44,552 nucleotides of DNA. Origin: Deltaproteobacteria bacterium. GTDB taxonomy: Bacteria > Desulfobacterota > GWC2-55-46. The stretch lies in assembly GCA_020846435.1 (NCBI GenBank), contig JADLDY010000031.1:85557-130108 (forward strand). The letters are read 5' to 3'. The translations under genes and the position numbers were made by a program. Positions 36,329 to 39,137 of this stretch are shown here, one piece after another. The notes beneath the pieces were generated by a model. It did no database searches. It saw only the letters and a program-made list of their open reading frames with translations, and had not been told where the DNA came from. How positions within the stretch are numbered: position 1 is the stretch's first letter; the number at the start of each line of letters is the position of its first letter.

Positions 36329-36412
36329 TGCGATATTTTGGCCTGCGGCTCTTGAGCGGGCCCTTTGCGGTTTGCGGAGCGGTTCTATTTGTGATAATAT
36401 GCTCCTGTTTTG

Positions 36413-37021
36413 ATGACTTTTATCTTGAATAGAATCCGCCGTGAAATGCTGACTTCAAGACTTAGAGCTTTGCTGATAGCCGGATTTGTCCTCTTCGGCG
36501 CCGCTCAAGCGGCAGACGCTGTAGCTGCCATGGACCCGGCGCCAGCCGACTGGCCGAGTTTCGAGTACAACAGGGTCCCCGGCGAGTTCAAGCGCAACAA
36601 GTACGGGGTAATCGACCCGAGCCCTGACGTCGTCTCGCTCCAGCAGCTGCCTGTTGACTCCTACGGCTTTGTCGACTGGGTAAAGGCGATCAACGACGGC
36701 ATCATAGACCCCAGGGAGTCCATAAGCGGCAATAAGCCGAAGCTTGGCCCTGAGGATTCTGAGGTATTCAGCGGGGATGTGCTCATCAGGTCCAAGATGA
36801 AGTTCATGCCCGACGTCATTTTCCCCCACTCCGCTCATACGGAGTGGCTCAAGTGCTCAACCTGTCATCCCAGGATATTCAAGAAAAAGGCTGGAGCAAC
36901 CCCCATCACCATGGCCGGAATCTGGAAGGGGCAGTTCTGCGGCAGGTGCCACGACAAGGTGGCCTTCCCCACGAGGAACTGCTTCAAATGCCACTCGGTC
37001 CCGAGAGAGTCAGGCAAATAG
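36413..37021 (+). CDS. triheme c-type cytochrome (c7/c3-like)
   Basis: 202 residues. Signal peptide (LRALLIAGFVLFGAAQA). Three haem-binding motifs lie near the C-terminus: CSTCH, CGRCH and CFKCH, with additional His residues in IFPHSAHTEWLKC to serve as sixth ligands, as in c7-type triheme domains of Geobacter-like bacteria. The preceding part (about 30-140) has few recognisable motifs. The protein would carry electrons in the periplasm. First gene of the operon; 24 bases before the LuxR-like sensor-only gene. The ATG at 36413 has no RBS; ATG 36446 is an alternative. Confidence 0.85.
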   Translation: MTFILNRIRREMLTSRLRALLIAGFVLFGAAQAADAVAAMDPAPADWPSFEYNRVPGEFKRNKYGVIDPSPDVVSLQQLPVDSYGFVDWVKAINDGIIDPRESISGNKPKLGPEDSEVFSGDVLIRSKMKFMPDVIFPHSAHTEWLKCSTCHPRIFKKKAGATPITMAGIWKGQFCGRCHDKVAFPTRNCFKCHSVPRESGK

Positions 37022-37045: not shown

Positions 37046-37648
37046 ATGCCTTTTGACGACCTTGAAAAAAAAGAACTCATAAGCATACTCGAGCTCATCG
37101 AACAGGCGCAGCGTTCTCAAAGCGCGCCTGACGTGCAAAAGCTCATACTGCGGGCCGCGGGCTTCCTTGACGCCGATTTCGCGGTCTGCGGGCTCGCGCG
37201 CGCCAGCTCCGGCGGGGCGCCTGTGCTGACCTCGTTCGTGAACGGCAATTACCCGGAAGAATGGGCAAGGCGCTACATGTCTGGAGCCTACTACCGGAAG
37301 GACCCGGTCGTGCGCTTCCACACGAGGTACGCCCTTACCAGGACCTGGTCAGAGGTCTTCAGGGAGTTTAAGGACGACGGGGCGAGAGAGGTCGTTGCCG
37401 AGGCTTCTGATTTCGGCATGAAGTTCGGGGTCACCGGCGCGCTCTATGTGCCTGAGATAGACAACGTCGCCCTCTTTGCTTTTTCCGGAGGGCGCGATAA
37501 ATTCGGAGAGAGGCACAAGAGGCTCGCCGACATACTTGCCACGCATTTCGTCAGGGCGCTGGCCAGGTGCTCAAGGGAGTCTCTCATCGCGCCGGGCGCC
37601 GGTTTTGCCGGGGAAGGATGCCCAGAGGGGCTGGAGGGGAAGGCATGA
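37046..37648 (+). CDS. LuxR-type autoinducer-binding domain protein without a DNA-binding domain
   Basis: 200 residues, covering only the N-terminal autoinducer-binding domain of LuxR/TraR proteins. The ligand residues are kept with TraR spacing: Trp73, Tyr77, Asp86 and Trp101 (TraR 57, 61, 70, 85), and a Gly near 131 in FGVTGALYV. After the domain comes a short Gly-rich tail (GAGFAGEGCPEGLEGKA) and a stop; no helix-turn-helix follows in frame. It is a paralogue of the downstream LuxR (shared KKELISIL/KKELSEIL start, NYP.EW, KDP/QDP, DFG). Candidate roles, inferred: sequester AHL, or heterodimerise with the full-length LuxR as an antiactivator, as truncated TrlR does with TraR. RBS GGAG; overlaps the next gene by four bases. 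Confidence 0.8.
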   Translation: MPFDDLEKKELISILELIEQAQRSQSAPDVQKLILRAAGFLDADFAVCGLARASSGGAPVLTSFVNGNYPEEWARRYMSGAYYRKDPVVRFHTRYALTRTWSEVFREFKDDGAREVVAEASDFGMKFGVTGALYVPEIDNVALFAFSGGRDKFGERHKRLADILATHFVRALARCSRESLIAPGAGFAGEGCPEGLEGKA

Positions 37649-38403
37649 CGATCTACAACGACCTTACCAAAAAGGAGCTCTCTGAGATCCTCGACGTCAT
37701 CCAGTCTTCCATCCAATGCAGGGCGGAAGAGGATATAAGGGTCCTTCTTGACCGGATAAGGGGTCTTGTCTGCGGTGACTTCGGCATCTGCGGCATAGGC
37801 AAAGGCAAGGACAGCGGCGAGGAAGGCCTGAGCGCCCCGCCACATATAATAAACCTGAACTACCCGATGGAGTGGCTCCAGATATACGGCGCCAACCAGC
37901 TCTACTACCAGGACCCGATAGTAATAAGGAACCTTTCAAACCCCGGCTCCCAGCTCTGGGACGAGACCTACTCGATGTACGACGGCAAGCTCTCGAAGCT
38001 TTTTCTCACCTCGCGGGACTTCGGGTTGAATCACGGCGTCTCCGGCGGCATGTACAACCAGGACAGCAACACAACTACCCTGTTCTCGTTCTCCGGCAGC
38101 GGGGACTGGTTCAAGTCCCATCAGAAGAAGATCCTCGGCATACTCGCCCCGCATCTTCATCAGGCGCTCTCCCGCATATACAAGACCGCCCAGACCAACT
38201 CGCGCCTCGGCAGTCTTTCAAAGCGCGAGCGCGAGATAGTCTCCTGGGTAAAGGCGGGCAAGACCAACTGGGAGATCTCCATGATACTCAACATAAGCGA
38301 GCGGACCGTGAAGTTCCACGTCCAGAACATCGAGAGGAAGCTCGAGGCCGTCAACAAGGCCCATGCAGTCGCGATCCTGATGGAACAAGGCCGCCTCGAT
38401 TAG
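37645..38403 (+). CDS. luxR: LuxR family quorum-sensing transcription regulator
   Basis: 252 residues. Autoinducer-binding domain about 1-175 with Trp77, Tyr81, Asp90, Trp105 in TraR spacing, then LuxR-type helix-turn-helix about 190-248: LSKREREIVSWVKAGKTNWEI, ISERTVKFHVQNIERKL. Binds an acyl-homoserine lactone and a lux-box DNA site. Translational start ATG 37645 overlaps the preceding sensor-only gene (ATGA), so both are made together. The luxI gene faces it tail to tail with a 53-base overlap. A lux-box-like dyad lies at 39118-39137. Confidence 0.9.
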   Translation: MTIYNDLTKKELSEILDVIQSSIQCRAEEDIRVLLDRIRGLVCGDFGICGIGKGKDSGEEGLSAPPHIINLNYPMEWLQIYGANQLYYQDPIVIRNLSNPGSQLWDETYSMYDGKLSKLFLTSRDFGLNHGVSGGMYNQDSNTTTLFSFSGSGDWFKSHQKKILGILAPHLHQALSRIYKTAQTNSRLGSLSKREREIVSWVKAGKTNWEISMILNISERTVKFHVQNIERKLEAVNKAHAVAILMEQGRLD

Positions 38404-39007
38404 ACATCCACTCGAGGAAGCCCGGCCTTTTCGCGGCCGCGGACTCTTCGAACTCACGCCAGTCAAGGAGCGCTATCCCTGACATCACCCCTTCGCCGAG
38501 AGGCTTGAAGTCTGCCAGGGGCACGAACGGAAAGAACCTCTTGAGGTAGATGAAGTACCTCTGCTCGATGATGGTGACAAGGTAGCGCGAGTCGTTCTGC
38601 AGTGACCAGTGGTATATGGCCTTGTAGAGAAGGTGCGCGAGGCTCAATGAAGCGACCGTGTCCTTGCGCCGCTCCTTCCTGACGCATATCCTCGTAGACT
38701 CTGACATGCCTTCGACCTTGCGCAGCCCCCCGGCTGGCAGGAGGCAGGAGAACTCTTTTTCGATCATGTACGGCAGGGGCGCCCGGATGAGGCGCACGTG
38801 CCCCACGAGCTCTCCTGTGAGCTCGAAGACGCCGATGGCTTCAGCGAAGTCGTCGTAGGCGTCCCTGTCCAGTCCGTCCGGCGACGGCGGCACCCACCGG
38901 AGCTCGTCCCGGAAAACGTCGTGCCTCAATTTCAGCGCGGAGTTTATTTCCTCCGGGGCGGAGATGGTCTTGACCAGGTAGTTTTCCTCTTGGAATATCA
39001 GTTCCAT
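38351..39007 (-). CDS. luxI: acyl-homoserine lactone synthase (LuxI family)
   Basis: 218 residues. LuxI landmarks: Arg28, Phe32, Trp38 in LRHDVFRDELRW (LuxI 25, 29, 35), Asp49 and Asp52 in LDRDAYDDF, Arg72 in GHVRLI, and Glu/Arg of ESTRICV. It couples S-adenosylmethionine with an acyl chain to make an AHL that diffuses out. The acyl chain length cannot be read. RBS AAGGAGGTG six bases before ATG 39007. The last 17 codons lie antisense to the end of luxR. The 39008-39204 intergenic region holds a lux-box dyad and a promoter for the divergent radC. Confidence 0.9.
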   Translation of the reverse strand: MELIFQEENYLVKTISAPEEINSALKLRHDVFRDELRWVPPSPDGLDRDAYDDFAEAIGVFELTGELVGHVRLIRAPLPYMIEKEFSCLLPAGGLRKVEGMSESTRICVRKERRKDTVASLSLAHLLYKAIYHWSLQNDSRYLVTIIEQRYFIYLKRFFPFVPLADFKPLGEGVMSGIALLDWREFEESAAAKRPGFLEWMSNRGGLVPSGSRLHGPC

Positions 39008-39117
39008 GCCAGCACCTCCTTTTGCCTGCTTTTTAACAGGTAAGGGGCAGTGGATGTAACTGGCAGGGATTGCAGTTTAAAAAGTCTTGTAAATAGCTTA
39101 AAATAAAAGGTTTTGCT

Positions 39118-39137
39118 TACTGTACTTTGGTACAGGG
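39118..39137. promoter_or_regulatory. lux-box-like operator
   Basis: 20-base site containing the perfect dyad CTGTAC-TTTG-GTACAG (39120-39135). Core halves CTGTA/TACAG with six bases between agree with the lux box (ACCTGTAGGATCGTACAGGT). Centre about 120 bases from luxI and about 77 from the radC start. Confidence 0.75.

Follow-up and report, generated by a model that had tools for sequence, protein, structure and literature searches.

The analysed window is a 44,552-nt stretch of the genome of a Deltaproteobacteria bacterium (contig JADLDY010000031.1). It contains a quorum-sensing locus of three genes, denoted here S, R and I: a luxR paralogue that encodes only an autoinducer-binding domain (ABD), a full-length luxR, and luxI. 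The syntenic order of the genes is RNase J, T2SSE-type ATPase, c7-type cytochrome, S, R, I, radC, and histidine kinase. The coordinates of the main features are given in Table 1.

Table 1. Genes and candidate regulatory boxes of the S-R-luxI locus (positions in the window).
Feature	Position	Strand	Basis
Triheme c7-type cytochrome gene, 24 bp upstream of S	36410..37021	+	PF14522/TIGR04257; synteny
S: autoinducer-binding-domain-only LuxR paralogue, without HTH	37046..37648	+	PF03472; AlphaFold2 model; 21 homologues aligned
R: full-length LuxR-type regulator, 252 aa	37645..38403	+	PF03472 and GerE; CviR 3qp6, E=2.6e-35
I: LuxI-type AHL synthase, 218 aa, convergent with R	38351..39007	-	PF00765
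Proximal CTG-N10-CAG box of luxI, CTGCAATCCCTGCCAG	39060..39075	-	found at the corresponding place in almost every triad locus
Distal lux-type box of luxI, CTGTACCAAAGTACAG, perfect 6+6 dyad	39120..39135	-	position and sequence conserved in most triad loci

The luxI gene is the only one in the source genome, and its product scores 69.6 bits against PF00765, above the curated cut-off of 24. The closest solved structure to the product of R is CviR. The genes luxR and luxI are convergent and overlap at their 3' ends by 53 bp (38351-38403); most relatives have a similar 3' overlap, of roughly 50-70 bp. The stop codon of S and the start codon of R overlap in the tetranucleotide ATGA (37645-37648), and both genes probably belong to a single transcript with S upstream. 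The cytochrome gene is probably co-transcribed with the quorum genes. Its position upstream of S is syntenic in many relatives.

Two candidate CTG-N10-CAG boxes were observed upstream of luxI. They are usually 60 bp apart, as in the window, or 68 bp apart in some loci, and the pair is conserved in most triad loci across both types of R-I genes described below. These boxes stood out only in the alignment across relatives. A scan of the window with the CviR consensus stayed at the chance level (36 boxes found, 30 expected). The distal box is the single perfect match in the whole genome, and a genome scan for it with one mismatch allowed did not exceed the control and revealed no wider regulon. 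No CTG-N10-CAG box was seen upstream of S or of the cytochrome gene. Given the conservation of the pair, R probably controls luxI via these two boxes. The proximal box follows the putative promoter of luxI and precedes its start codon, an arrangement in which one box could serve activation and the other repression.

The S frame (200 aa, ATG start) coincides exactly with the interval given in Table 1. Its product matches PF03472 with 71.2 bits (the curated cut-off is 23) over positions 4-148 of the 149 positions of the profile, that is, at full length. This is its sole Pfam match: the Pfam search found neither GerE nor any other HTH, and thus the C-terminal DNA-binding domain that characterizes LuxR-type transcription factors is absent. 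S is not classed as such a factor. The frame stops directly after the last ABD helix. The residues Trp73, Tyr77, Asp86 and Trp101 have the spacings +4/+13/+28 of W57, Y61, D70 and W85 of TraR, and Pro87, corresponding to P71 of TraR, is present as well. Both the reduction to the ABD and the TraR-like spacing had been read from the sequence in the first-pass annotation, and both are borne out. The AlphaFold2 model (mean pLDDT 87.5) shows the autoinducer-binding fold in full, only the tail of residues 180-200 being disordered, and the top PDB match of this model in Foldseek is the ligand-binding domain of CviR with C6-HSL (3qp1, TM 0.74). S and R are the sole proteins with an ABD in the source genome.

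A frameshift artefact that masks an HTH had been named as a possible trivial explanation of S. It is rejected, as R begins at the stop codon of S, leaving no DNA for a lost domain. It is also contradicted by the homologues: in each of the 21 aligned copies, nothing but a short, unconserved tail follows the last ABD helix. Nor is S a recent truncation of the adjacent luxR, since the two proteins are only 31% identical and the S copies cluster apart from the R copies.

We surveyed one genome per species. S was found in 22 species-level genomes, 20 of the 30 from the same family and one each from two other families of the order. The named relatives are nearly all deltaproteobacterial MAGs, many of them from groundwater; GWA2_54_12 is among the closest. 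All named genomes of this lineage are MAGs. In all 22 genomes S lies immediately 5' of R on the same strand. A tight overlap of 4 to about 8 bp is seen in five genomes only, all of one R-I type; elsewhere the genes are separated by gaps of 10 to 144 bp, or, in G006, overlap by about 23 bp. The ATGA overlap, from which translational coupling had been proposed, is present in the window and is no general rule: adjacency and strand are conserved, the coupling is not universal. At two loci, L040 (G016) and L047 (G014), S is followed by two full-length luxR genes and then by luxI. At L036 (G027) an intact S stands beside an R interrupted by an internal TAG and a broken luxI, due to either decay or an assembly error.

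The positions Trp73, Tyr77, Asp86, Pro87 and Trp101 are invariant in 21 of 21 aligned S copies. The last ABD helix has a mean pairwise identity of 45%, about the level of the pocket helices (47%). The dN/dS ratio of S between relatives is about 0.16-0.33, well below 1. It is usually higher than that of R in pairs of the same type, e.g. 0.24 vs. 0.07 for G002-G003. On the sequence evidence, the autoinducer-binding domain of S is intact and purifying selection acts on it. In the ABD tree the S copies group together, apart from the R copies. Monophyly of all S copies is favoured, not proven: it takes three changes in one tree, and after dropping three long branches S forms one group with weak support (64/39), so that strict monophyly is not firmly supported.

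The presence of S is tied to luxI. Within the family, S accompanies luxI in all 19 assessable genomes where luxI is intact, and it is absent from all nine that lack luxI (Fisher p=1.4e-7, kinship among genomes being ignored); this count leaves out G021, where the contig begins inside R, and G027, with its broken luxI and the internal stop in R. At four syntenic loci (L050, L052, L053, L062) both S and luxI are absent and R is kept; therefore S is lost with the synthase even where the regulator stays. The corresponding genomes, G019, G024, G028 and G029, retain the cytochrome gene, R and radC at this site, and the interval between the cytochrome gene and R is about 63-151 bp. Such solo R genes at the syntenic site after joint loss of S and luxI were seen in two genera. 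Outside the family, R-I pairs without S exist (G054, L060).

The R and I genes form two deep types that alternate within genera. The contrasting groups are G000, G002 and G003 vs. G001; G017 and G025 vs. G008 and G023; and G021 vs. G014. In the trees, S keeps its genus-level grouping across most haplotype changes while R and I switch between the deep types. Taken by itself, the tree could be read as replacement of R and I beneath an unchanged resident S. This reading is rejected on synonymous distances: between G017 and G008, dS is 0.27-0.58 in the flanking genes and 1.33 in S, 1.51 in R and 1.17 in I. As all three values far exceed those of the flanks, S, R and I all belong to the exchanged block. 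Across 14 syntenic loci, after removal of the flank distance, the distances between S copies correlate with those of I (partial r 0.33) and of the R ABD (partial r 0.35; p 0.007 each). No correlation with the R HTH was observed at the same loci (partial r 0.11, p 0.16).

At a fine scale, the change can be followed in one genome pair, G011 and G018 (loci L041 and L043). The flanks of these loci are nearly identical, with dS of 0.07 in radC, 0.11 in the cytochrome gene and 0.12 in the kinase gene. Nevertheless, the locus differs in three islands: most of luxI (dS 1.66), a pocket segment of R and a pocket segment of S. In R, 81 of 107 codons differ within codons 49-156, the pocket part of the ABD, against 11 of 136 outside. 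In S, 29 of 46 codons differ within codons 75-120, which hold Tyr77, Asp86 and Trp101 with their surroundings, against 16 of 148 outside. For either gene, none of 200 shuffles matched the observed clustering. The R HTH and S residues 136-178 are nearly unchanged (pS 0.05 and 0.04, respectively). The two loci may be considered a natural mosaic pair, with a pattern as in a switch of the signal type.

Because the islands comprise luxI and the pockets of both R and S, with the R HTH unchanged, S is predicted to bind the AHL of luxI. Most likely, then, its ligand is the AHL made by the neighbouring synthase; on the simplest interpretation, R recognises this AHL too. The first-pass interpretation is supported in part: the conserved ligand residues, the exclusive co-occurrence and the co-loss with luxI, and the co-change of the pockets support S as a dedicated AHL-domain protein tied to this circuit. 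A broader proposal treats the three genes as one cassette for signal specificity. Synthase, regulator and HTH-less co-receptor would switch the signal type jointly without leaving their chromosomal site, and neither the DNA-binding domain nor the target boxes would change. The HTH-less receptor would then be an obligate, signal-specific part of the AHL circuit, dispensable in cells that produce no signal themselves. We hold this proposal tentatively, a little short of an even chance.

As regards the role of S, we consider it about evenly balanced whether S is a standing third component of the LuxI/LuxR circuit, an antagonist similar to TrlR and CerN that raises and sharpens the AHL threshold of the luxI loop. 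The preferred mode of action is an AHL-dependent heterodimer with R. S would be translated just ahead of R and fold around the same AHL, and the AHL-bound S would use its terminal ABD helix, which it has retained, to pair with R. With a single HTH, such a heterodimer would be unable to bind the palindromic box upstream of luxI, and R would be taken off. The AHL threshold of the luxI feedback loop would thus become higher and sharper, as with TrlR acting on TraR and CerN on CerM. The heterodimer would be in line with the constant position of S 5' of R in 22 genomes, the invariant ligand residues, the linkage to luxI, the co-change of the pockets, the dN/dS values, and the precedents of TrlR and CerN. 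On the other hand, S lacks the Pro and Gln that are conserved in the last helix of R (TPHxHQAL), which counts against this reading. Moreover, as S lies upstream of R, probably in one transcript, it would provide constant damping of R unless the rate of its production or the affinity of its binding differed.

Another possibility is that S is an AHL buffer that binds the self-made AHL without touching R, so that the pool of S saturates before R responds. A plain buffer accounts equally well for the linkage of S to luxI: S has invariant AHL-contact residues, occurs within the family only with luxI, and changes its pocket with luxI. The loss of S together with luxI where R is kept fits such a sink equally well and is a point against the heterodimer. 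However, a free sink needs no fixed position, and S invariably precedes R directly and in the same orientation; besides, its last ABD helix is about as conserved as the pocket helices. We regard the buffer as possible but rather unlikely. Distinctly unlikely, in our opinion, is a positive or switching co-regulator, with AHL-bound S stabilising R, or with the S:R complex having a distinct DNA preference, e.g. between the two luxI boxes. The box pair about 60 bp apart in most triad loci and the probable joint production of R and S would suit this role, as would the drop of the CerM protein in a cerN mutant (PMC11655674). However, R persists without S at four loci, so S is not needed to maintain R.

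The genus-level grouping of S across the switches of R and I could also mean that the partner of S is not R but, e.g., another LuxR-type protein. Since the source genome encodes no third protein with an ABD, we find this very improbable. Finally, S might be a functionless, decaying duplicate of luxR. Its faster evolution relative to R in same-type pairs and the damaged locus of G027 point in this direction. However, the S frame is intact in 22 genomes of three families, the ligand residues are invariant, dN/dS is well below 1, and no orphan S copies were found. The pseudogene explanation is rejected on conservation and dN/dS, and its remaining probability is close to negligible.

The HTH-less LuxR proteins known so far are TrlR, a curiosity created by a frameshift, the single characterised pair CerN/CerM, and the entries of a survey. 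S adds a lineage-wide, long-conserved version tied to luxI, and the G011/G018 loci provide a natural allele pair in which the synthase and both pockets are changed and the DNA-binding half is not. The locus makes it possible to study how a built-in receptor decoy sets the quorum threshold, and how AHL circuits switch the signal while keeping the regulon.

Among the known systems, R is nearest to CviR of the CviR/CviI systems by solved structure and S folds like the CviR ligand-binding domain; however, CviR is a full-length regulator and S lacks the DNA-binding half. Co-evolution at the ligand sites has been established for LuxI and LuxR (PMC8328516). Strains of Pectobacterium carotovorum differ in the ExpI class, a parallel case in which members of one group have different luxI-type alleles and AHLs; the abstract of that study describes no three-way change with an ABD-only receptor (PMC6934387). 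A survey of LuxR solos lists truncated LuxR proteins near full-length luxR genes in several species and suggests sequestration or interaction; unlike for S, neither pocket co-turnover nor dependence on luxI is reported for these ABD-only proteins in the sections consulted (PMC4338825). In the literature searched, we found no HTH-less receptor that is lineage-fixed, restricted to genomes with the synthase, and changes its pocket with it.

S has the anatomy of the TrlR/CerN-like class: the ABD is present, the HTH is absent, and a full-length LuxR is encoded in the same genome. TrlR of the Agrobacterium Ti plasmids, to which S had been likened originally, is also an ABD-only LuxR-type protein, and forms inactive heterodimers with TraR (PMC6341043, PMC13043044). 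The analogy holds as a precedent for an HTH-less antagonist, but not for the origin of the gene. TrlR is encoded by a traR allele that was frameshifted recently (PMC6341043); it lies in an opine operon and is 88% identical to TraR (PMC11655674). S, by contrast, is an old paralogue fixed beside luxR and conserved across genera. CerN of Cereibacter sphaeroides is the closer precedent. It is an HTH-less LuxR homologue encoded near luxR/luxI, with the WYDPWG pocket residues and 31% identity to its partner CerM, the same as between S and R; in pull-down and EMSA experiments, CerN-AHL bound CerM and removed it from DNA (PMC11655674). The differences are that CerN is alphaproteobacterial and its target CerM is separate from CerR, whereas S directly precedes the only luxR.
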